From contig CANRDB010000008.1 of assembly GCA_947629315.1 (NCBI GenBank), forward strand, positions 1 to 52,163: a DNA stretch of 52,163 nucleotides. The letters run 5' to 3'. Source of the stretch: an uncultured Bacilli bacterium. GTDB lineage: Bacteria > Bacillota_I > Bacilli_A > RF39 > UBA660. A program made the translations under genes and the position numbers. The first letter of the stretch is position 1. Every line of letters starts with the position of its first letter. Shown here in pieces: positions 11,754 to 43,323 of this stretch. Below the pieces are notes generated by a model that saw nothing but the letters and a program-made list of their open reading frames with translations, had not been told where the DNA came from and made no database searches.

Positions 11754-11779
11754 CATTGAGAGAATGGAAAGGGGTTCTT

Positions 11780-12409
11780 ATGAGCAAATACTATTATTAC
11801 GGCTTTCGGGGTACTAATCTTACAAAGATTTGTTCACAATTATTAGAAATTATATCTTCTGAGGCGATTAAGCCAAAACGTTCTCTCGGGTTTACAGTAG
11901 CGAATGGTTATAATGGTCTAGACTATGTCAGTATCTGTCAGAAAAAAACGGATGGAGAATATCAAAGACGTATTCAAGAGGGGTATTTATCTGCTTACAG
12001 TTGGTATATTCATAATCATTTTTGTTTTATTATTTCAGAGAATGTAAAAGCAATTACGCCTGAGTTGGTTTCTGTTTTTCATTTTCAAAGTATTCAGGAC
12101 TTTGTTCAACATTGTTTTCACGATCTAGATGAGCGGTATAGTGATATGTTTGATGAGTATCAAGTGAAAGGAGAAATTCCTCTTTCTAAGATAGTAGGAA
12201 TTGGTATTCCCACTACGGAAATAGAGACTCGTCAAGAAGAAGAGATTCAAGATTCTCTTATGCAATTATTGAATGCTGCCCAAGAAAAAGAATGGGATGT
12301 TGTGGATACTAGTGATTTTCACTTTGTCGACCAATATGAGAGTCTAAAAGAAACAGGAAAAGAGAAAGTATATCAGATTTCTCGTGGAAAGAGGAATTTA
12401 GATGAGTAA
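11780..12409 (+). CDS. Paralogue array member 1, ART-like unknown
   Basis: First of six tandem copies of an unnamed soluble family. 209 residues. Shared landmarks: N-terminal YYYYGF (the family His is Tyr here), SSEAIKPKRSL, GYNGLDYVSICQK, NHFCFIISEN, then RYSDMFDEYQVKGEIPLSK with IVGIGIP, and VVDTSDFHFVDQYE near the end. The block from DEYQ to GIGIP resembles the catalytic-Glu strand of DarT-type ADP-ribosyltransferases; this is inference. There is no signal peptide or membrane segment. ATG 11780 is preferred over upstream TTG 11756 because GGAAAGGGG lies just ahead and the other copies begin at the same point. It overlaps copy 2 by eight bases. Confidence 0.8.
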   Translation: MSKYYYYGFRGTNLTKICSQLLEIISSEAIKPKRSLGFTVANGYNGLDYVSICQKKTDGEYQRRIQEGYLSAYSWYIHNHFCFIISENVKAITPELVSVFHFQSIQDFVQHCFHDLDERYSDMFDEYQVKGEIPLSKIVGIGIPTTEIETRQEEEIQDSLMQLLNAAQEKEWDVVDTSDFHFVDQYESLKETGKEKVYQISRGKRNLDE

Positions 12410-13001
12410 GTATTACTATCATGGAATTACGGATAATACAAAGGGCTTATCTGTGATGTATGGTATTTTTAAAGAGGGTGCGATTAAGTGCCGAAAACAT
12501 CTATGGAAAGAACAGTATAAACCTTATGGGGGATATAATGGTATTTATTATGTCAGTGTCTGTCAAAAATTAGAAGAAGGGGTATCGGGAGAACAAGCTT
12601 ATCGGTGGTTTATTCAAAATCGATTTTGTTTAATTTTAGAGGAAAATTTACCGGCTATTAAGACGATTACGTTAGGGAGTCATCTATCTATTGAACAACA
12701 CTTAAAATTATTGAAAGAAGTAAGTTCTCTATCCGAAAATCGTTGTAGTGATTTAGTAGATGAGTGGCAGGTAAAAGGGGATATTCCTCTTTCTTCTGTC
12801 GTGGGCATTGGTTTACCGGTAAGACAAATTTTTCGGGATGGATTAGTGAAACAAAGGAAAGACTTTTATCGACTTTTAAAAATCATCAAGATGGCTCATT
12901 CTCTTCATATCGATATTGTGGATAGTAGTCAACCAAATTTTGCCGAACGATATGAGAGTCGAACGGATAAACGAGCTAGGAAGGTCAAGAAATATGAATA
13001 A
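12402..13001 (+). CDS. Paralogue array member 2, ART-like unknown
   Basis: 199 residues with the full family pattern: SKYYYHGI, FKEGAIKCRKHL, GGYNGIYYVSVCQK, NRFCLILEEN, CSDLVDEWQVKGDIPLSS with VVGIGLP, and IDIVDSSQPNFAERYE, then a basic tail (KRARKVKKYE). It keeps both the N-terminal His-Gly and the DEW glutamate, so it is a candidate active copy if the transferase idea is right. Its ATGAGTAA start overlaps the stop of copy 1, with a ribosome-binding site (GGAAAGAGG) inside copy 1's end. It is soluble, with no targeting signal. Confidence 0.8.
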   Translation: MSKYYYHGITDNTKGLSVMYGIFKEGAIKCRKHLWKEQYKPYGGYNGIYYVSVCQKLEEGVSGEQAYRWFIQNRFCLILEENLPAIKTITLGSHLSIEQHLKLLKEVSSLSENRCSDLVDEWQVKGDIPLSSVVGIGLPVRQIFRDGLVKQRKDFYRLLKIIKMAHSLHIDIVDSSQPNFAERYESRTDKRARKVKKYE

Positions 13002-13518
13002 GTGTTATTATTATGGAATTCAAAATGATGAGGAGTTAGAGACGGTTTATCAGATATTGACAACAGGTGGAATTAAAAGTGAACAATTATTAAACCGTAA
13101 TAAAAAGGGCTCTTCATGTGGGAAGAATTATATTTCAATTTGTCAAAAGGAGTCTCCATCGAAAAAAAATTCAAACAATGCTTTTGATCAGTATATTCAG
13201 GGAAAGTATTGTTTCATTTTATCAGATATGATTCCTATTTTACCACTAGAATCAGATGTCGAAGAACTACCATTAGACTGCTACCGAGTACTAGGAGAAA
13301 TCTCTCTTGATCAGATGATGGCAATCGGTATTCCTAGTCTAGAAATGAAAAGAATTCAAGAGGTTGGCTCTATCGAAGAACGAGAAATATTAGAGACGAT
13401 TCAAAGACTTACAGAGTCATTAAGATTAGAGATTGTGGATAGTAGTGCGAAAAATTTTGAGGAACATTATGAAAAAGGGTTCAAGAAAAATAAAAGTAAA
13501 ATAAAAAATAGGGGGTAA
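12994..13518 (+). CDS. Paralogue array member 3, shortened and divergent
   Basis: The shortest copy (174 residues). N-terminal NKCYYYGI replaces the family His with Tyr. YISICQK and YCFILSD are kept, but the long middle loop is contracted and the DEWQVKGEIP block has become LDCYRVLGEIS, so the conserved Glu is lost. AIGIP and IVDSSAKNFEEHYE are retained, as is a Lys-rich tail. Both candidate catalytic residues are missing, which suggests a regulatory or decaying member. The start is ATG 12994, overlapping copy 2's stop (ATGAATAA); a longer upstream frame runs through copy 2 and is not used. Its reading frame is intact. Confidence 0.75.
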   Translation: MNKCYYYGIQNDEELETVYQILTTGGIKSEQLLNRNKKGSSCGKNYISICQKESPSKKNSNNAFDQYIQGKYCFILSDMIPILPLESDVEELPLDCYRVLGEISLDQMMAIGIPSLEMKRIQEVGSIEEREILETIQRLTESLRLEIVDSSAKNFEEHYEKGFKKNKSKIKNRG

Positions 13519-13523
13519 GACTA

Positions 13524-14177
13524 GTGAGTTATTTTTGGGGACATAGTAAATGTTATTTACATGGAGTGCGTCCTACACAAGCCGGTAGAGTCATTGATAA
13601 ACTCTATCAAATTTTTGTCGACCAAGAAATTAAGACAAAAGATAAATTAAACTATGAACGAGATTATGGATTCAATGGAAAATATTATGTGAGTGTTTGT
13701 CGGAAGATGCCCGTTTTCTCTCATTTTTTTGCCTCTTATTGTTCTGCTTATTATGGGTTTGTGAGAAATCATTTTTGTTTTATGATGAGAGATTGCATGA
13801 AAGTTGTTTCAACGTCAACGATTACAGTGGAACAGTATTCGGAGAATATAGAGTATTATAAAATATTGAAAGAAAAGTATCCAATGGAGAGAATTAGCGA
13901 TATGTATGATGAGTTTCAAGTATATGGGTCTATTCCTTTTTCAGAAGTGATTGCTTTTGGCATACCTATTAAACATCTAAATGATTATTTGGAATCGAAA
14001 GAGGATTGGGAAAAATTTCGGGAAGTTCTGGCTATGGCAGAGGCTTTAGGACTGGATCTTGTCGATAGTAGTGCATTTGGTTATGTTGAGAAATATGAAT
14101 GGGCTAAAAAGGTTCATAAAAATGTGAATGGAACAAAAGTATTAAAGAAAATTGCGAAAACATATAAGGGGGATTAG
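13524..14177 (+). CDS. Paralogue array member 4, ART-like unknown
   Basis: The longest copy (217 residues), with five extra residues before the family start (SYFWGHSKCYLHGV). Landmarks are QEIKTKDKL, YGFNGKYYVSVCRK, NHFCFMMRD, RISDMYDEFQVYGSIPFSE with VIAFGIP, and LDLVDSSAFGYVEKYE, followed by a Lys-rich tail. It keeps the His-Gly and the DEF glutamate. The start is GTG 13524 with GGGGG (13511-13515) eight bases upstream, five bases after the stop of copy 3. This junction differs from the ATGAGTAA overlaps elsewhere in the array. Confidence 0.78.
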   Translation: MSYFWGHSKCYLHGVRPTQAGRVIDKLYQIFVDQEIKTKDKLNYERDYGFNGKYYVSVCRKMPVFSHFFASYCSAYYGFVRNHFCFMMRDCMKVVSTSTITVEQYSENIEYYKILKEKYPMERISDMYDEFQVYGSIPFSEVIAFGIPIKHLNDYLESKEDWEKFREVLAMAEALGLDLVDSSAFGYVEKYEWAKKVHKNVNGTKVLKKIAKTYKGD

Positions 14178-14178
14178 G

Positions 14179-14769
14179 ATGGAACAATTTTATTATCATG
14201 GTATCCAAGAGGGGGCGGATGGAATTATGACGATGCTTCGCATTTTAAAGTCAGAATCTATCCAATCGAAACGATTACTTCAATATGCGAGTGAGGGAGG
14301 ATTTAATGGTTTGGATTACGTTAGTGTGTGTAAATGGAATCCAAAGGATATGGTCAAAAAAGATTCCTCTTTCCCAATTTGGATTCAAAATCATTTTTGT
14401 ATGATTCTCTCTCAGAATACTCCTGCTACTAAGACCAATTATTTACCAGGAGGAAGAGATTTATCGCAATCCGATTTAAAGGCCTTTTTAGATACGCATC
14501 GTTATGAGCGATATAGTGATGTAGCAGATGAATGGCAAGTGAAAGATGAGATTCCAAGTGAGTACTGGGTTGGAGTTGGGTTACCAACCAAGTGGATTTT
14601 AGAAGAAATTTCTCATCATCTAGATCGAACCCATTTATTAGCGCTAAAAGAGTTATTAGAAGTAGCGAATGCTTTAGGACTTGATTTAGTCGATAGTAGT
14701 CGTCCACATTTTGTCGAAGAATATGAAAAGCAGTATGCTTTGAAAGGAAAGAAATATCGTTATGAGTAA
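14179..14769 (+). CDS. Paralogue array member 5, ART-like unknown
   Basis: 196 residues: EQFYYHGI, KSESIQSKRLL, GGFNGLDYVSVCKW, NHFCMILSQN, RYSDVADEWQVKDEIPSEY with WVGVGLP, and LDLVDSSRPHFVEEYE. It keeps the His-Gly and DEW residues. I place the start at ATG 14179, one base after copy 4's stop codon, with AAGGGGG at 14166-14172. The longer frame from 14152 lies inside copy 4 and adds a non-family leader. Its stop overlaps the start of copy 6 (ATGAGTAA). It is soluble, with no signal sequence. Confidence 0.8.
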   Translation: MEQFYYHGIQEGADGIMTMLRILKSESIQSKRLLQYASEGGFNGLDYVSVCKWNPKDMVKKDSSFPIWIQNHFCMILSQNTPATKTNYLPGGRDLSQSDLKAFLDTHRYERYSDVADEWQVKDEIPSEYWVGVGLPTKWILEEISHHLDRTHLLALKELLEVANALGLDLVDSSRPHFVEEYEKQYALKGKKYRYE

Positions 14770-15364
14770 GTATTTTTATCATGGAGTACGGGGAGTCTTT
14801 TTAGAGGATATTCTAGATACCGTCCTTTCAATCTTACACGATGGGAGAGTGAAGACGAAAGGTCAATTAAATAGTACCAATAAGTATGGCTTTAATGGTA
14901 TGGAGTATATCAGTTTATGTCGGAAAGAAAAGAACCGAGAATATAGAAGACGAAGAGGAGAAGCAACGGCTTATACCAACTATATTTATGATGAGTTTTG
15001 TTTTATCTTTCGCGATACTATCCGAGCTGAAAAAACGATGAACTGTGATTTTTTATCTACGATATCTGCTTTTTATGAATTACTTCAGAAATACCCAGAT
15101 GAGAGAATTAGTTTACTGTTTGATGAGTGGCAATTCAAAGGAGCACTTCCGTTAACGGAGTGTATAGGAATAGGTATTCCTTTAGAACATATTGAAAAAG
15201 ACAAAGATAGTGTCACTTTAAAGAAATTAAAACAAGTTCTTTTGTTAGCCGATGCCCTTGGTATCGATATTATCAATAGTAGTGATCCCTATTTCATTGA
15301 AAAATATGAAATGCGAAAAAAATGGAATTGCCAAAAAAGAATAGTAATTGACCCTAAATTATAG
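14762..15364 (+). CDS. Paralogue array member 6, ART-like unknown
   Basis: Last copy, 200 residues: SKYFYHGV, HDGRVKTKGQL, YGFNGMEYISLCRK, DEFCFIFRD, RISLLFDEWQFKGALPLTE with CIGIGIP, and IDIINSSDPYFIEKYE. It keeps the His-Gly and DEW residues. It starts inside copy 5's stop (ATGAGTAA) with GAAAGGAAAG upstream. Only 25 bases separate it from tgt, and that gap holds a TATAAT for tgt but no terminator, so array transcripts may run into tgt. Confidence 0.8.
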   Translation: MSKYFYHGVRGVFLEDILDTVLSILHDGRVKTKGQLNSTNKYGFNGMEYISLCRKEKNREYRRRRGEATAYTNYIYDEFCFIFRDTIRAEKTMNCDFLSTISAFYELLQKYPDERISLLFDEWQFKGALPLTECIGIGIPLEHIEKDKDSVTLKKLKQVLLLADALGIDIINSSDPYFIEKYEMRKKWNCQKRIVIDPKL

Positions 15365-18884: not shown

Positions 18885-20444
18885 ATGGAGGAAGAAAACA
18901 AAAAAGATGTTGAACTAGATGAAGTATCTGACCTTGAGGAAGATATGGAACTAGATGAGACAGAAAAAGAAGACAAAAAAGAGGATGACAAGAAAGAGTC
19001 AAAAGAAAAAGAAGACAAAGAAGATAAAGAAGACGATGAAGAACCTGAAGAGAAAAAAGAAAAGAAATCTTCCAAGAAAAAAGATGATGATGACGATTTA
19101 GAGGAAGATGAGGAAGGAACTGGTTCTCTAGTTGGAAAAATTATTCTTGCTCTTATTGTTATCGCGGTTATTGTTGTTTTACTATTAAGAAGCTGCGGAA
19201 ACACGGCAACTTATGAAATTACATTTGATACGAATGGTGGTTCTCCAGTAAGTACGTTAAAAGTAAAGAAAGACGGAACAATTACAAAACCAGCTGATCC
19301 AACAAAAGAAGGTTATGTCTTTGATGGTTGGTATTATAATGATGAGAAATTTGATTTTAGTACCAAAGTAACCAAAGATATGAAGTTGGATGCTAGATGG
19401 ACGGAAGCAGCCAATGCTGCTGTTGATGGTGTGACTTTAAATCAAGAGGAGATTGCTTTAGAGCCAGGTAATACAGCAACATTAATTGCAACGGTATCCC
19501 CTGAGGATGCAAAAAACAAATCATTAACATGGACTTCAAGCGATGAGGGAATTGTAACAGTTGATGAAAATGGTAATATTACTGCTGTAAAAGCAGGAAC
19601 TGCTACAATTACTGTAACTACCGAAGATGGAGGATATACAGCCACTTGTACTGTTAAAGTTCAAAAAGGAGTTGTAGCCGTAACTGGAGTTAGCTTATCT
19701 GGAACCTCTATAGAAGTAGCCACTGGCTATACTGCAACCTTAAAAGCTACTATTAAACCAAGTGATGCAACGAATAAAACCTTAACATGGACGAGTAGTG
19801 ATACTTCTATTGCAAGTGTTAATAGCAAAGGTGTTGTAACTGGTAAGAAAGAAGGAACTGTTACTATTACTGTTAAAACAGCTGATGGTGGTTATACAGC
19901 AGAAATTAAAGTAACTGTTAAAAATCAACCAGTAACAGGCGTATCTATTAGTGGTGGTAAGAGTACTATGACTGTTGGAGATAAAGGTACTTTAAAAGCT
20001 ACTATTAAACCAAGCAATGCTACCAATAAGAAAGTAACATGGAAAAGTAATCACAATGATATCGTTTCTGTAGATTCTAAAGGTAACATTAAGGCTTTAG
20101 CACCAGGAACTGCTACTATTACCGTAACAACGGATGATGGTCAAAAAACAGCTACATTCAAAATTACTGTTAAAGAAAAACCATCTACTTACACAATTAC
20201 TTTTACAGCCTTAAAAGATGCGTTAGGTAATATTAATCAGTACGAAATATACGTTACAAAAGATGGTAAACAGTTTGAAGAATATACAAGTATTACCTAT
20301 AATGGAAATACAAGACCATTTAAACAATCTAACAAAGTGGATGTTAAATATGTAGATACATCTAAAAAGACGGCGACTATTAATCTTAAAGATGGAAGTA
20401 CAGTAAAAGTCACTAATATAAAATATACAAGTAAAAATATATAA
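18885..20444 (+). CDS. Membrane-anchored InlB-repeat plus triple Big_2 surface protein
   Basis: 519 residues. Residues 1-83 are an extremely charged Lys/Glu/Asp tail, presumably cytoplasmic. Residues 84-106 span the membrane. An InlB repeat follows (YEITFDTNGGSP to MKLDARW, about 109-168). Three bacterial Ig-like Big_2 domains come next, each with the pattern VTGVSLSG, TLKATIKPSDATNK, LTWTSSD and GTATITVTT (about 172-258, 260-345 and 346-425). The C-terminal 90 residues are beta-rich and unassigned. There is no LPxTG motif, so the protein is held by its N-terminal span. It looks like an extended version of the two preceding genes and probably acts in adhesion or wall contact. GGAAGG precedes ATG 18885. 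Confidence 0.88.
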   Translation: MEEENKKDVELDEVSDLEEDMELDETEKEDKKEDDKKESKEKEDKEDKEDDEEPEEKKEKKSSKKKDDDDDLEEDEEGTGSLVGKIILALIVIAVIVVLLLRSCGNTATYEITFDTNGGSPVSTLKVKKDGTITKPADPTKEGYVFDGWYYNDEKFDFSTKVTKDMKLDARWTEAANAAVDGVTLNQEEIALEPGNTATLIATVSPEDAKNKSLTWTSSDEGIVTVDENGNITAVKAGTATITVTTEDGGYTATCTVKVQKGVVAVTGVSLSGTSIEVATGYTATLKATIKPSDATNKTLTWTSSDTSIASVNSKGVVTGKKEGTVTITVKTADGGYTAEIKVTVKNQPVTGVSISGGKSTMTVGDKGTLKATIKPSNATNKKVTWKSNHNDIVSVDSKGNIKALAPGTATITVTTDDGQKTATFKITVKEKPSTYTITFTALKDALGNINQYEIYVTKDGKQFEEYTSITYNGNTRPFKQSNKVDVKYVDTSKKTATINLKDGSTVKVTNIKYTSKNI

Positions 20445-37181: not shown

Positions 37182-37233
37182 ACTCTTATTATAACACGTT
37201 CTCATTGACAAAACTAGGATTTCGAGATATACT
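37182..37233. promoter_or_regulatory. Divergent promoters of the pilin operon and DUF192 gene
   Basis: Rightward, TTGACA (37205-37210) and TATACT (37228-37233) are exactly 17 bases apart and drive the pilin gene. Leftward, an extended -10 TGT TATAAT lies on the minus strand about 15-20 bases before the DUF192 start, and its -35 region overlaps the rightward -35. The two units are likely co-controlled. Confidence 0.72.
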
Positions 37234-37256: not shown

Positions 37257-37445
37257 ATGAAGAGTAATCGTGGGCAAGCACTAGTAGAGTACCTTTTAAT
37301 TATTGTGGTCGTCAGTGTTCTTGCTATTGGTATTATTAAAATTTTGGGTGGATATGTAAAAGATAGTATGACGAAATCTTCCTGTGAGTTATTAGATAAA
37401 ACCTATGTAGAGGGAGAAACTCCAGGAGAGGGAAAATGTGAGTAG
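37257..37445 (+). CDS. flp: Flp-type class III pilin (Tad pilus major subunit)
   Basis: 62 residues. The leader KSNRG is followed by QALVEYLLIIVVVSVLAIGIIKI: the prepilin peptidase site after Gly, Glu at mature position +5, and a hydrophobic assembly helix are all as in Flp/Tad pilins. The short mature tail carries two Cys (KSSCELL and the penultimate GKCE), which could form a disulfide. GGAGGAGGT before ATG 37257 is the strongest ribosome-binding site in the region, fitting a major subunit made in excess. No prepilin peptidase gene is in the window. It is co-transcribed with the EF-Tu-like gene. Confidence 0.9.
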   Translation: MKSNRGQALVEYLLIIVVVSVLAIGIIKILGGYVKDSMTKSSCELLDKTYVEGETPGEGKCE

Positions 37446-37459
37446 GAAAGAGGATTTAA

Positions 37460-38230
37460 ATGAATGGAAATTATCAAATGATGGGGCAAGGAGGAACTAC
37501 CGCTCCAAAACAGAATACACATTCGAAAGTAGTGTGGGGGATAGTAATCCTTATCTTGTTGTTGGTAGTAATCGGACTTTTATGGTTCTTTTTAGGAAAA
37601 GATAAGAAAGAAGATTCTCAACCACAACCATCAGAATCAGAAGAAGATTATACAGAACACTATGATGAAAATGGACCATTTTTATTGGCTATTGAGGATG
37701 TTTTCAATGTTACGAATCAGGGAACTATAGTGACAGGAAAAATTGCTCGTGGAAAAGTAAAAGTGGGAGATAAAATGATTTTACTGGGAATGGGAAAAGA
37801 ACCAGTAGAAGTAGAAGTTTTGGCTATCGAAAAAGAACGAAAATTAATTGATAGTGCGGGTTATTTAGAAGAGATTGGAATGAGGGTATCCAATGTAGAG
37901 GTAAGTGATGTGGTGAGAGGACAAGTTCTCGTTGCACCAGGTTCTATGGAAGCTCACACCAACTTTGAGGCAAAAATAACTTTGTTACAAGATGAGGGGA
38001 AAGATATCACTCTTAAGACAAATACTAGTAGTTCACTATATTTTAGAACGACGGATGTTACCGGAAACATTACTTTCTCTGAAAATCGATTAGAGGCAAA
38101 AACGGGAGATACTCTTACCGTGACTATCCAGTTAGAGCAGTCGATGGCACTAGAGGTAGGAACTGTTTTCGCAATTCGTGATCATGGAAGAACAATTGGT
38201 CAAGGAAAGGTTATGAAAATAATCTCTTAA
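37460..38230 (+). CDS. Membrane-anchored EF-Tu domain II-III protein without GTPase domain
   Basis: 256 residues. A 23-residue tail, one membrane segment (about 24-46), an acidic linker (47-72), then two beta-barrel domains that match elongation factor Tu domains II and III. Domain II: FLLAIEDVFNVTNQGTIVTG, ARGKVKVGD, a RKLID motif, and RGQVLVAPGS. Domain III: HTNFEAKI, LYFRTTDVTGNITF, GDTLTVTIQL, and GTVFAIRDHGRTIGQGKVMKI. The GTP-binding domain and all its motifs are absent. The gene follows the pilin by 14 bases, so it is part of the pilus locus. By the loading of basic residues the barrels are probably outside the cell, though topology is not certain. Role unknown; a surface binding module is my inference. 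Confidence 0.88.
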   Translation: MNGNYQMMGQGGTTAPKQNTHSKVVWGIVILILLLVVIGLLWFFLGKDKKEDSQPQPSESEEDYTEHYDENGPFLLAIEDVFNVTNQGTIVTGKIARGKVKVGDKMILLGMGKEPVEVEVLAIEKERKLIDSAGYLEEIGMRVSNVEVSDVVRGQVLVAPGSMEAHTNFEAKITLLQDEGKDITLKTNTSSSLYFRTTDVTGNITFSENRLEAKTGDTLTVTIQLEQSMALEVGTVFAIRDHGRTIGQGKVMKIIS

Positions 38231-38259
38231 AAATGATAATAAAAAGTTATCATTTTTTT
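38230..38259 (+). terminator. Terminator after the EF-Tu-like gene
   Basis: AAAATGATAA pairs with TTATCATTTT (ten base pairs, seven-base loop), followed by T. It separates pilin and EF-Tu-like expression from the assembly genes. Confidence 0.85.
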
Positions 38260-38288: not shown

Positions 38289-38297
38289 TGATATAAT
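38289..38297 (+). promoter_or_regulatory. Extended -10 promoter of the Tad assembly genes
   Basis: TGA followed by TATAAT, 24 bases before the first tadE-like gene. It should drive 38322-44650, including murC. Confidence 0.6.
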
Positions 38298-38321: not shown

Positions 38322-38660
38322 ATGAGAAATCATCGAGGGCAAGCGTTGATTGAGTTTTTACTCATTCTGCCAGTTCTATTTATGATTATGATGGCAGTCT
38401 TTGACTTTGGAAATATTTTGTATCATCAATATAAGATGGAAAATAAACTAGATTTTATTGTCGATTTATATCGCAATGATCAAGAAGAAGAACTAGAACA
38501 ATATCTTCAAGAGAATGACTTAGTGATGGATGTCGCACAGGAGAGTGCCTATGCAACTCTCTATATCAAACAAGAAATCCATATTTATACTCCAGGACTC
38601 AGTAAGATTTTAGGAAGTCCTTATCGGATTGATGCTACGAAGACAGTATATGAGGGGTAA
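38322..38660 (+). CDS. TadE-like pseudopilin 1
   Basis: 112 residues with the TadE signature NHRGQALIEFLLILPVLF: a prepilin-type site after Gly, Glu five residues into the mature part, and one N-terminal hydrophobic helix. The rest is a small outer domain. TadE-type proteins are minor pilins needed for Tad pilus assembly and have the same peptidase site as the major pilin. GGGGTGAT precedes ATG 38322. It is followed one base after its stop codon by a second related gene. No Cys are present. Confidence 0.85.
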   Translation: MRNHRGQALIEFLLILPVLFMIMMAVFDFGNILYHQYKMENKLDFIVDLYRNDQEEELEQYLQENDLVMDVAQESAYATLYIKQEIHIYTPGLSKILGSPYRIDATKTVYEG

Positions 38661-38661
38661 T

Positions 38662-39033
38662 ATGAATAATAAAGGACAGACATTAGTCTTATTTCTCTTT
38701 ATTCTTCCTATTTTACTAGTGATGTTTATTACTCTGTATCAATTAGGACATCTTCAACTGGAAAAGAAAGAACTAGAGAAAAGTATGGAAGAAGTGATTC
38801 GGTATGGTGTTGATTACTGGGGTACAGAGACTATCGAAGAAGATATGATTGTCATGTTTCAAAAAAGTTTTCCAAATATTTCTAGAGAAAATATAGCGAT
38901 TGAAGTAGAACAGGATAAAGTAAAGATGAGTGTATGGAAAGAATATAATCTCTCTTTCTGGAGGAAAGAGACAATTCACCTTTCCTATGAAGGGGAAAAA
39001 ATAGATGGAAAGGTCCAAATAGTAAAGGAATAG
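38662..39033 (+). CDS. TadE/TadG-like pseudopilin 2
   Basis: 123 residues beginning NNKGQTLVLFLFILPILL, the same prepilin-like layout as the preceding protein, but with Leu in place of the +5 Glu, a residue usually needed for pilin packing. A small charged outer domain follows. I place the start at ATG 38662, one base after the previous stop, with GAGGGG ahead; an alternative upstream Met lies inside the previous gene. It belongs to the Tad assembly operon. Confidence 0.78.
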   Translation: MNNKGQTLVLFLFILPILLVMFITLYQLGHLQLEKKELEKSMEEVIRYGVDYWGTETIEEDMIVMFQKSFPNISRENIAIEVEQDKVKMSVWKEYNLSFWRKETIHLSYEGEKIDGKVQIVKE

Positions 39034-39043
39034 GGGTTCAATT

Positions 39044-39796
39044 ATGAAAAAAGCAAGAATTTGTACAATTACTTCGGTTAAGGGTGGAACAGGTAAGACC
39101 ACTTTTACTCTTAATTTAGCAGCTACTTTAAAATTGATGAAGAAAAGAGTGTTAGTGATAGATTTGGATGTCGCAGCGGGAGATGTAGCGGCTCGTCTTG
39201 ATTTAGCGCATGAAAAAGATTTATACAATTGTTATGAGGATATTCGAAATCATACCTTTGAACAGATTGAGGATTATGTATATCCGTATACAGAGGGTAT
39301 CGATATTTTATCTGCACCAAAAGACCCTCGCTACGCTAGCAAAATTGAGACAGGTTTTCTTACATATCTCATTTCCAAGGTATCTTTAAAATATGATGTT
39401 ATTTTGATGGATACCAATCATATGCTCTCACCATTAAATTTAGTGGCATTCGATTATAGTGATCAAATTTTCTATATTATGAATAATGAGTGTATGAATT
39501 TAAAAGGAATGCGTACGATGTCTGCTATTTTTGAAGATATGGAATCTGATAAAATGGTTGTGGTATTAAATGATTCTACGAAGAAAACGACTGGGGAATA
39601 TACCATCAGCGATATGAAGAATTTGATGAAAAGAGAAGTGGATTATCGGATTCCACAATCATTCTATCAAAAGAAATATGATAAGTATGTCATGAATGGT
39701 GTGATTTTCTTACTAGATAAGAAAGTTCGAAAAGCATCTAGTCGGGCTGTAAAAGTATATCAATCGATAGCGAAAGGGCTATTAAAGGAGGATTAA
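39044..39796 (+). CDS. tadZ: TadZ/CpaE-like MinD-family ATPase
   Basis: 250-residue P-loop ATPase of the ParA/MinD superfamily. The deviant Walker A motif KGGTGKTT (about residues 14-21), VLVIDLDVAAGDVA (switch I/II region) and YDVILMDTNHML (Walker B-type) are in place. In Tad systems TadZ/CpaE places the pilus machine at the cell pole or membrane. The receiver-like N-terminal domain of many CpaE proteins is absent here. It follows the pseudopilins and precedes tadA by one base. AGGGG precedes ATG 39044. Confidence 0.88.
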   Translation: MKKARICTITSVKGGTGKTTFTLNLAATLKLMKKRVLVIDLDVAAGDVAARLDLAHEKDLYNCYEDIRNHTFEQIEDYVYPYTEGIDILSAPKDPRYASKIETGFLTYLISKVSLKYDVILMDTNHMLSPLNLVAFDYSDQIFYIMNNECMNLKGMRTMSAIFEDMESDKMVVVLNDSTKKTTGEYTISDMKNLMKREVDYRIPQSFYQKKYDKYVMNGVIFLLDKKVRKASSRAVKVYQSIAKGLLKED

Positions 39797-39797
39797 T

Positions 39798-41123
39798 ATG
39801 GGAAAGAAGTTTGTAGAAGAATTTGATGTTTCTCTAAAATCTGAGATGAATAGTCCGATGACAGACTATGAAACGTTTTCTAATAAAGAGTTGTTAGATG
39901 AACTTCGTAATAAAATTATTCAAGGACTTATTGATAAACATCTCAAAGACTCTGCTATGACATCTCTTGCTATTCGCGAAGAGGTAGATGATGTGTTAGA
40001 GGGCTATGATTTAAGTATCGTAGAGAGAAGTTATCTTTATAATTTAATCGACAATGAAGTAAATGGTAATGGACCCATTACAGAGTTATTGGAAGATAAA
40101 GACATTACAGAAATTATGGTCAATGGAAAAGATGAGGTCTATATTGAATTAGATGGTAAGTTAGTCAAAGATGAGAGTGTTTCTTTCATCAATGAAGAAC
40201 ATATTGTAAGAACAATTCAACGATTGATTCAACCATTAGGAAGAACGATTGATACGACTAATCCAATGGTAGATGCTCGCTTGCAAGATGGATCTCGTTT
40301 AAATGCTGTGTTACCACCATTATCTTTAAAGGGACCAGTTCTTACCATCCGCAAGTTTAAAAAAGAATTAGCGAATATAGATGATTTCTTAAGAAATGGA
40401 GCGCTTACTCCTTATATGGCAAGATTTTTAGAGGCTTGTGTGAAAGCTAAACTCAACATCTTAATCTGTGGAGGAACAGGAGCAGGAAAAACGACGTTAT
40501 TAAATATCCTATCTTCTTTCATTGGTAAAGATGAGAGAATTGTAACGATTGAGGATGCTGCAGAATTGAAATTGGAACAAGACCATGTGATTTCTCTAGA
40601 AACGAGAAATGCGAACTACGAAGGAGAAGGAGAAGTAACCGTTCGGGATTTAGTAATCAATTCTCTTCGTATGAGACCAGATCGTATCGTAGTGGGAGAG
40701 GTTCGTGGAAAAGAGGCTTTCGATATGTTACAAGCCATGAATACAGGACATGAAGGTTCCCTTACAACGATGCATGCGAATAGTCCACATGATGCTTTAA
40801 ATCGATTAGAGACAATGGTTTTAATGGCAGGTATGGAAATTCCTGTTCGGGCCATTCGCGAGTACATTCATGAAGCCATTGATATCGTCGTTCAAATTGA
40901 ACGGTTAACAGATGGACACCGAAGAGTGACGAGTATCTGTGAGGTATCTGGCATCGAAGATGGTATGGTAACGTTACACGAAATTTTTGCTTTCCATAAA
41001 CAGGGATTAACAGAAAATTTGGAGGTTAAAGGAGAATTTGTGTTAGAACCAGGAGTTCCTAACGTTTACGAGAAAATGAAAGCGATGGGAATTGAGGATT
41101 TGACAGATATATTTGGAGAATAG
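39798..41123 (+). CDS. tadA: TadA/CpaF pilus assembly ATPase
   Basis: 441-residue hexameric secretion ATPase that powers Tad pilus extension. The C-terminal half has Walker A GGTGAGKTT near residue 225, an Asp box DERIVTIEDAAELKL, Walker B-type RMRPDRIVVGEVRG, and the His box LTTMHANSP. The N-terminal domain (GNGPITELLEDKDITEIMVNG) is the usual one for CpaF. Its length matches the family. AAAGGAGG precedes ATG 39798. It is followed at once by the two membrane-platform genes. Confidence 0.96.
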   Translation: MGKKFVEEFDVSLKSEMNSPMTDYETFSNKELLDELRNKIIQGLIDKHLKDSAMTSLAIREEVDDVLEGYDLSIVERSYLYNLIDNEVNGNGPITELLEDKDITEIMVNGKDEVYIELDGKLVKDESVSFINEEHIVRTIQRLIQPLGRTIDTTNPMVDARLQDGSRLNAVLPPLSLKGPVLTIRKFKKELANIDDFLRNGALTPYMARFLEACVKAKLNILICGGTGAGKTTLLNILSSFIGKDERIVTIEDAAELKLEQDHVISLETRNANYEGEGEVTVRDLVINSLRMRPDRIVVGEVRGKEAFDMLQAMNTGHEGSLTTMHANSPHDALNRLETMVLMAGMEIPVRAIREYIHEAIDIVVQIERLTDGHRRVTSICEVSGIEDGMVTLHEIFAFHKQGLTENLEVKGEFVLEPGVPNVYEKMKAMGIEDLTDIFGE

Positions 41124-41135
41124 GAGGGGAACAAT

Positions 41136-42641
41136 ATGTTAGAAGATGATGGATATTATATAAGTTTGGCTAGCCATGAAGAGTTTACACGTGATGATAT
41201 CCCAATTGAATATCAACCAGGCGATGGTGTTACTAACTATTCTTATACCATTACGAAAGATGGCAAAAGTGGAGAGACCTTCTATATTCCAGATAACTCG
41301 CTAGAACGAATTGTTCTAGAGGAAACTGGAACGTATACGATTGAGTTTGTCAATGAGTATCAAGATGGTCATACGACAACTTTTAAAACGGGTATTTATA
41401 ACGTAGATAAGGAAGCACCTAGATTAGAGATTAAGAAGAACTCTTATCAAATAGAGGCTGGTTCTACCTTTAATGTGATGGGTGGAGTAAGAGCTACGGA
41501 TACCCAAAGTGGTAATTTAACTTACAAGGTAGAAACGAATGTCAAAGATATCGATTTTGATACGTTAGGAAAAAAAGAAGTTACCTATCGAGTAACGGAT
41601 GAAGCCGGTAACACGACGATGAGGACGATTGTCTTTGAAGTGGTACCAAGTAAAAGAGAAGAACTTTTATTAGGTGGCTGTGTTGTTATTGGTATTCTTG
41701 CTCTTCTTGTGTTATTAATTGTTCGTTATTATCGTACAATATTATTAGAGAAGAGAATTGGCCATTATTCTCTAGAACCAGTTGGAAAGAGAGGAAATTT
41801 CTTTGATCGGGTATTAGAGTTTAAAGATGGTATTGTGGAAGCATTCGCGAAACGATTAAGAAAATATAATAGTATAGTGTACTATTGTAAGCGATATGAA
41901 AAATATCAAATCGCCTTTATGGAGTCTTCCACTGTCAATTTCTTTGCTCAAAAGTTATTGATGAGTATTTTCTTCTTTGCGTTTGTGATGTTAGCATCGA
42001 CATTACGGTTAGAAGTACTAGATTTAACGGGAACTATTTTCGCGTTATTGCTAGGATTCTTCCTACCAGATCTCATCTACTTTATTCGTTATCGCTTTTA
42101 TCGAAATCATGTGGAAAATGATTTATTACAAGCGATTATCATTATGAATAATGCCTTTAAATCTGGTCATAGTATTCCACAAGCAGTTGAAATTGTCGCT
42201 CAAGAGTTGGAAGGCGATATTCATGAAGAGTTCGCTCGGATGCATAAAGAATTAAGTATGGGGTTATCGGTAGAAGAGGTATTCCGTCGCTTTGCACAGC
42301 GAATTGAAATTACAGAAGTAACGTATTTGACATCTTCTCTATCTATCTTAAACCGTACTGGTGGAAATATCATCAAAGTATTTAGTTCGATTGAGAAGAC
42401 ATTAATGAATAAGAAAAAACTTCGTTTAGAGATGAAAGCCTTAACGAGTAGTGCGAAATTAGTAAGTTACCTATTGATGGTTTTACCAGCACTCTTTGTG
42501 GTCGGTATTAGTTTCATTAGTCCAGACTATTTTCTACCACTCGTTAGTAACGTGATGGGGTGGTTAGTACTCATCGTGATTATCTTAGTATATTGTCTAT
42601 ATGTATATGCGGTAAGAAGAATTATGAAAGTAAGGATGTGA
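41136..42641 (+). CDS. tadB: TadB platform protein fused to Ig-like extracellular domains
   Basis: 501 residues. The C-terminal two-thirds is a normal TadB: membrane segments, then the T2SSF domain (NDLLQAIIIMNNAFKSG; AQELEGDIHEEFARMHKEL; YLTSSLSILNRTGGNI) and two more membrane segments. The first 178 residues are unusual: two Ig-like regions, the second of DUF5011/HYR type (DKEAPRLEIKKNSYQIEAG; VRATDTQSGNLTY; GKKEVTYRVTDEAGN), before the first membrane span (about 179-198). There is no signal peptide, and an in-frame stop lies just upstream, so the start is fixed at ATG 41136 by GGAGGGG. How the N-terminus reaches the outside is unclear. Confidence 0.88.
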   Translation: MLEDDGYYISLASHEEFTRDDIPIEYQPGDGVTNYSYTITKDGKSGETFYIPDNSLERIVLEETGTYTIEFVNEYQDGHTTTFKTGIYNVDKEAPRLEIKKNSYQIEAGSTFNVMGGVRATDTQSGNLTYKVETNVKDIDFDTLGKKEVTYRVTDEAGNTTMRTIVFEVVPSKREELLLGGCVVIGILALLVLLIVRYYRTILLEKRIGHYSLEPVGKRGNFFDRVLEFKDGIVEAFAKRLRKYNSIVYYCKRYEKYQIAFMESSTVNFFAQKLLMSIFFFAFVMLASTLRLEVLDLTGTIFALLLGFFLPDLIYFIRYRFYRNHVENDLLQAIIIMNNAFKSGHSIPQAVEIVAQELEGDIHEEFARMHKELSMGLSVEEVFRRFAQRIEITEVTYLTSSLSILNRTGGNIIKVFSSIEKTLMNKKKLRLEMKALTSSAKLVSYLLMVLPALFVVGISFISPDYFLPLVSNVMGWLVLIVIILVYCLYVYAVRRIMKVRM

Positions 42642-42645
42642 GAAG

Positions 42646-43323
42646 ATGGCTAGAAAGAAAAAAATGTCTAGTGTAGAAAAGTTAGATAAGCAAATTGCTT
42701 ATTTAGGAACTGCTAAATTTACAGCTGAGAAATTCTTATCGGTTCGTCTTTTGACGATGGTCATCTTTGCTTTTGCACTTTACTATTTTACCGATATTTC
42801 TTATTTTGTAATTCCTTTTCTTGCTATTGCCTATTACTATTTGTTATACTATGTAGTGATTACGGCACCTATTAAGAAGAGAAGTATGAGATTGGAACGG
42901 GATGCCTTAAACTTTTTTGAAGTGTTGACGCTTTCCCTAGAATCTGGTCGTAATTTAGAAAAATCATTAGAGATTACGGTCGAAAATGTATCATCCGAAT
43001 TAAGTGATGAGTTTCAAAAGGCTCTCACGGAAGTTCGTTATGGAAAAAGTTTAGTAGAAGCTTTAAAAGATATGAAAACAAGAATTCCATCAGAAACCAT
43101 TAACAATATTCTGTTAAGTATTACAGAAGCGAGTATATTTGGTAGTAGTTTACTAGAGAATATGTATGCACAAATTGAATTCTTACGGGAAAAACAAGTA
43201 TTGAATGTAAGAGAAAAATTAAATCAAATTCCCAACAAGATCAGTATTATTTCAGTGTTGTTTATGGTTCCTCTTATGTTGTTATTGATACTAGGACCAT
43301 TATTAGTACAGTATATAAGTTAG
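42646..43323 (+). CDS. tadC: TadC pilus platform protein
   Basis: 225 residues: two N-terminal membrane segments (about 36-75), a T2SSF cytoplasmic domain (DALNFFEVLTLSLESGRNLEKSLE; ELSDEFQKALTEVRYGKSLVEAL; LLSITEASIFGSSLLENM) and a C-terminal segment (ISVLFMVPLMLLLILGPLL). TadB and TadC together form the inner-membrane base of the pilus. It starts four bases after tadB. Its length is a little short for TadC but all parts are present. Confidence 0.92.
   Translation: MARKKKMSSVEKLDKQIAYLGTAKFTAEKFLSVRLLTMVIFAFALYYFTDISYFVIPFLAIAYYYLLYYVVITAPIKKRSMRLERDALNFFEVLTLSLESGRNLEKSLEITVENVSSELSDEFQKALTEVRYGKSLVEALKDMKTRIPSETINNILLSITEASIFGSSLLENMYAQIEFLREKQVLNVREKLNQIPNKISIISVLFMVPLMLLLILGPLLVQYIS

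Follow-up and report, generated by a model that had tools for sequence, protein, structure and literature searches.

A membrane-anchored protein of EF-Tu domains II and III encoded between a pilin gene and its terminator in a Bacilli Tad locus

Gene order and transcription signals of the Tad locus

The window, i.e. the whole stretch of DNA analysed here (52,163 nt), carries a Tad pilus locus on its forward strand, in which the gene of a Flp-type pilin is followed by a gene for a membrane-anchored protein of EF-Tu domains II and III that has no GTPase domain (256 aa, 37460–38230; assigned from the open reading frame, Pfam, phmmer and an AlphaFold2 model). The pilin gene, flp (37257–37445, 62 aa), matches the Pfam model Flp_Fap with an E-value of 0.0013, which is below the cut-off, and has orthologues in the same place in the congeners G002 and G003 and in genomes of the bacterial family. 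Its promoter, TTGACA-17-TATACT (37205–37233), is identical in the window, G002 and G003. The EF-Tu gene has an ATG start with AGAGGA upstream and begins 14 bases past the flp stop codon, the spacing already given in the initial annotation of this DNA. It is followed by a hairpin and T-run terminator (38229–38259), the TATAAT of a separate tadE promoter (38292–38297), a tadE-like pseudopilin gene (38322–38660; PF07811, 2e-10), a tadF-like gene (38662–39033; named from its position and the GQTLVLF N-terminus of its product, with no Pfam match), a gene for a TadZ-like ATPase (39044–39796; AAA_31, 3e-17), the secretion ATPase gene tadA (39798–41123; T2SSE, 6e-60), tadB with an N-terminal Ig-like domain (41136–42641; PF00482, 3e-13, and PF16403, 5e-7) and tadC (42646–43323; PF00482, 3e-15). 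In TadB of the window, a surface-type Ig-like domain precedes the T2SSF domain, and TadB of G002 and G003 look alike in that region.

Gene order in the Tad loci of G002 and G003 is that of the window; a hairpin with a T-run (AATGATAA...TTATCATTTTTT) stands behind flp there, and tadE comes next, no gene intervening. In the window, this hairpin with its T-run sits behind the EF-Tu gene, and no hairpin was found after the flp stop codon. Because the EF-Tu gene lies exactly between the stop codon of flp and the terminator of flp, the two genes should share one transcript. Moreover, since the terminator that stands behind flp in the congeners now stands behind the EF-Tu gene, this gene appears to have become part of the pilin transcription unit in this lineage. 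A TATAAT in the same place ahead of tadE also occurs in the majority of 29 further Tad loci from the bacterial family.

An EF-Tu gene between flp and tadE was found in none of the 29 readable related Tad loci (two of which end within 100 bases of tadE), and a conserved Tad component is thereby ruled out. The nearest relative, G009, with a TadA 90% identical to that of the window, reads N in the stretch upstream of tadA (L132:5502-12001), so that its flp region falls outside the comparison. The initial annotation had tied the gene to the pilus genes. This link stands as a physical one in this genome, inside the interval between flp stop codon and terminator, but it does not extend to the family of anchored proteins described below, whose other members lie elsewhere. 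Judged by these comparisons, the pilus link is real in this genome and looks like a late, local event rather than a family mark.

Architecture of the protein and its relation to EF-Tu

The protein is laid out as a short Gln/Gly/Asn tail, one membrane helix, an acidic linker and two barrels. The helix (about residues 24–45; codons 37529–37594), located by hydropathy and in the predicted model, reaches a peak mean Kyte–Doolittle value of 3.2. Alignments place the linker at residues 46–72 (37595–37675), ending in the family motif YDENG, and the codons of domain II (37676–37939) and domain III (37940–38227) follow. Both barrels pass the Pfam cut-offs, PF03144 at residues 88–157 (E-value 7e-10, 39.6 bits versus 30.3) and PF03143 at residues 163–254 (E-value 4.4e-18, 66 bits versus 27). 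No Pfam match to a GTPase domain was found in the protein, and the residues before the barrels are those of tail, helix and linker. With phmmer against solved structures, EF-Tu is nearest (E-value 1.9e-40, residues 65–255), and the score with the EF-Tu model TIGR00485 is 147 bits, far below its cut-off of 522. The AlphaFold2 model shows the helix and two barrels, with barrel pLDDT mostly >90, and the PDB structures closest to it are all EF-Tu, many with an rmsd of 1.3–1.6 Å over ∼189 columns, the alignment input being EF-Tu rows from eight Bacteroidota records and thus favouring an EF-Tu-like outcome. The likeness to EF-Tu is far beyond chance.

Thus, Pfam, phmmer and the model bear out the earlier description of a membrane segment and acidic linker followed by EF-Tu domains II and III without GTPase domain, and the structure prediction that it had called for gives an EF-Tu-like two-barrel fold. 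Its wording ‘almost motif for motif’ is supported insofar as both domain models pass, but was overstated, as the domain III segment GGRHTPFF..YRPQF of EF-Tu is absent and identity to the tuf product of the same genome is 38% over domains II–III (38–40% for tuf of the genus). That genome also has an ordinary tuf directly after an EF-G gene, with an intact G domain and split over two contig ends; the window gene is separate from it and dedicated. In EF-Tu itself (TIGR00485; PF00009-PF03144-PF03143), the two C-terminal barrels have the same order and fold, whereas the window protein has anchor and linker in place of the GTPase domain.

A degraded tuf or a contig-break artefact is ruled out by the intact frame and by the normal tuf elsewhere in the genome, and recent foreign import is not favoured because the base composition of the gene is like that of its neighbours and of tuf. 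With regard to a phage or plasmid origin, tblastn in both collections aligned only the barrels, over ≤57% of the query, as in tuf, and a scan of viral contigs gave no match.

A family of anchored EF-Tu paralogues

Anchored proteins of EF-Tu domains II–III were found in 8 of ∼200 related genomes, as seven distinct complete members, one duplicate, one partial member and one with domain III only. The genome of the window (G000) encodes a second such protein of 292 aa on another contig (C25, L020:9598-10476, minus strand), which is very diverged, has a 13-residue insertion in domain III and lies away from Tad genes. In the same genus, G007 and G009 carry one anchored protein each (300 and 310 aa), and the remaining congeners with a domain III match have tuf only. 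Among 193 genomes of the bacterial family, extra domain III matches beyond tuf came from G195 (two identical copies), G188, G100, G178 (partial), G030 and G075, the last being a broken remnant. The G030 gene (L118:7365-7766) encodes a 133-aa protein in which a zinc ribbon is joined to EF-Tu domain III alone, without membrane helix. The identical genes of G195 (L115:6219-7148 and L115:12809-13738) lie in a repeated block with recombinase genes nearby, which suggests mobility.

In a profile search of 288 genomes of the order with the anchored proteins, the complete members that this sample contained (G195, G100, G188 and the two of G000) outranked every tuf; no further protein scored above tuf, and weaker second matches were seen in G241, G270, G290 and G291. 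Searches of the class and the phylum (395 and 392 genomes) gave no additional close members at 1e-94, a cut-off at which, according to a leave-one-out test, members diverged to the degree of the window protein would go unnoticed.

In a maximum-likelihood tree of the barrels, a single branch (100/97; all bootstrap trees) separates the seven anchored proteins from 52 EF-Tu sequences. The window protein, on a long branch, groups with the G007 protein (99/92), a grouping to be read with caution since the branches of the tree are long and its inner order is unsure. Two sequence marks further set the family apart, YDxxG immediately ahead of domain II and, within domain III, EVGTEF, where tuf has TEKPF and ENGTKF; these marks are only partly kept in the most diverged members. 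Its members have a tail, a single membrane helix, a linker, YDxxG (from which P0004 and P0006 deviate) and domains II–III, and P0005 is still near EF-Tu, with 68% identity to tuf. Several independent truncations of tuf are not favoured, because the anchored proteins lie on one side of the branch and share marks that tuf lacks, although long branches may meet. Our literature search found no description of an anchored EF-Tu domain II–III gene without G domain. Four members match weakly, in domain II, the tRNA-binding protein Pbp11 (NF041207), whose model length of 104 indicates a small protein containing a region like EF-Tu domain II. Pbp11 has neither domain III nor anchor, the matches reach 20–28 bits against a cut-off of 100, and the window protein gives none.

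Tad genes were found near no other member of the family, the second copy in the same genome included. The G009 gene adjoins an RNase J-like gene, with sortase-like and surface-protein-like genes a few kb away; the G007 gene adjoins genes of thioredoxin-like membrane proteins and the second G000 gene hydrolase-like and phosphoesterase-like genes; the G195 genes are surrounded by recombinase genes; and those of G188, G100 and G178 lie among genes of zinc-ribbon and Gln/Asn-tail membrane proteins (neighbours were named from reading the sequences, a minority with Pfam as well).

Orientation and putative function

Two members, P0005 and P0006, start with an N-terminal zinc ribbon, a domain expected inside the cell. 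In most members, paired Lys residues precede the helix and the linker that follows it is acidic or rich in Asn or Thr; in the window protein, which contains no Cys, a KDKK immediately behind the helix makes the positive-inside argument weaker. Two genes of G100 that lie close together, one for EF-Tu barrels (L117:8136-9062) and one for WG-like repeats (L117:12372-14117; weak Pfam match, below cut-off), have tail and helix identical at 63 of 84 protein and 194 of 218 DNA positions. The tail shared by these two genes is Gln-rich and the outer domains differ, a case of anchor shuffling. Furthermore, a search with the anchor region of the window protein retrieves a G004 protein that bears bacterial Ig-like domains. 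Such tail-plus-helix proteins, with Ig-like, WG-like or other outer domains, are not a named family; they have a like anchor, of nearly the same sequence in one genome, and other domains where the window protein has EF-Tu barrels. A shared tail and helix with swapped outer domains is as one expects of a common display anchor, and the presence of this anchor in WG-like and Ig-like proteins argues for barrels facing outward. Judged from charge and analogy, the barrels of the window protein most likely face outward.

Of 20 positions that are tRNA contacts in Thermus EF-Tu structures, the window protein keeps 8, no better than the 38% identity elsewhere in the barrels, and its changes include N285E, L289R, R330K, Q341S and G391H. 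With these 8 of 20 sites and the lost GGRHTPFF..YRPQ segment, the window protein has most likely given up tRNA binding. By the same comparison, P0005 keeps 18 and P0002 16 of the 20 contacts, and a nucleic-acid role may be possible for members still close to EF-Tu, e.g. P0005. Domains II and III form much of the tRNA site of EF-Tu, and together with the contacts kept in P0005 and P0002 this would suit a membrane protein whose barrels face the cytoplasm and keep tRNA or a translation factor close to the membrane. We regard this as improbable for the window protein, because of the five substitutions and the segment loss just named, the missing domain I, and an anchor common to outward-type domains.

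The fibronectin-binding regions of surface EF-Tu of Mycoplasma pneumoniae have been mapped to the beginning of domain II and the greater part of domain III (PMC5593925), and mycoplasma surface EF-Tu and its fragments bind host molecules (PMC5593925, PMC6822514). By this analogy, surface binding is the best guess for the window protein, and the predicted joint transcript with flp would imply deployment alongside the pilus; a surface-binding or pilus-associated role is thus plausible. The likeness lies in domains II–III as a possible outward binding surface, whereas the moonlighting protein (PMC5593925, PMC6822514) is the translation factor itself, without signal sequence, and the window gene is dedicated and its product anchored.

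The explanation that we prefer, at a rough probability of 0.45, is that a piece of EF-Tu has been reused as a surface domain, for attachment alongside the Tad pilus. An EF-Tu paralogue would have lost its GTPase domain and been mounted on the tail-plus-helix anchor that this bacterial family uses for several unrelated domains, probably with the tail inside the cell and an acidic or Asn/Thr-rich linker carrying the two barrels on the outside. The domains, the anchor and the single family can be read from the sequences, whereas the orientation is a probable one. The window protein cannot use GTP, and in this species the tRNA-contact surface seems no longer to be kept. By comparison with relatives, one copy in this lineage would have landed between pilin stop codon and terminator and be made together with the pilin, its likeliest function being that of a non-enzymatic surface binding module for attachment beside the Tad pilus. 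The proposal of a domesticated EF-Tu module was right in substance, as there is a dedicated, anchored family without G domain; as far as these genomes tell, the module was domesticated for display on the membrane, and only in this lineage did it become part of the pilin transcript. It counts against our explanation that the Tad linkage is unique to this genome among the members found. More tentative is a further step, that moonlighting has here been made permanent, in that a bacterial family has split off the C-terminal EF-Tu half and turned it into a dedicated binding domain displayed on the membrane, co-deployed in one lineage with pili for attachment.

The predicted production from the pilin transcript would equally suit an accessory of the pilus machine, whose barrels would help in assembling, stabilizing or guiding the Flp pilus at the membrane, and a single helix with an extracytoplasmic beta domain might be the build of such a part. 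We consider this unlikely, since the gene is missing from related Tad loci and its relatives are unlinked to Tad genes, so that the machine does not need the barrels. The same patchy distribution and scattered neighbourhoods, the recent doubling of the G195 copy among recombinase genes and the long branch of the window protein could point to a copy of a freely duplicating surface-protein family that came to lie behind flp by chance, with a function unrelated to pili. However, the frame is intact, the fold is well predicted despite >60% divergence from tuf, the position of the gene between stop codon and terminator is exact, and its base composition is native; chance placement is hence also an unlikely account. 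An EF-Tu shape without activity, facing outward, might moreover serve as a decoy against agents that attack EF-Tu, e.g. contact-delivered EF-Tu-binding toxins, and CdiA toxins are known to have EF-Tu as a partner (PDB 7vmc), but a copy as strongly diverged as that of the window would be a poor mimic, which makes this very improbable.

It has long been disputed whether EF-Tu at the cell surface has a genuine function there or has leaked from broken cells. A separate, anchored surface gene would allow a clean test, as it could be removed without touching protein synthesis. The family also shows reuse of a translation-machinery domain by its transfer onto a common membrane anchor.

Elsewhere in the window, six adjacent genes for similar sequences of ∼200–217 aa (YYYHGI..., NGLDYVSVC) resemble a tandem array of paralogues (11756–15364), the two genes tested giving no Pfam match. 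The gene at 18885–20444 encodes a likely surface protein of 519 aa, whose N-terminus is acidic and which contains a Listeria-Bacteroides repeat and three Big_2 domains.
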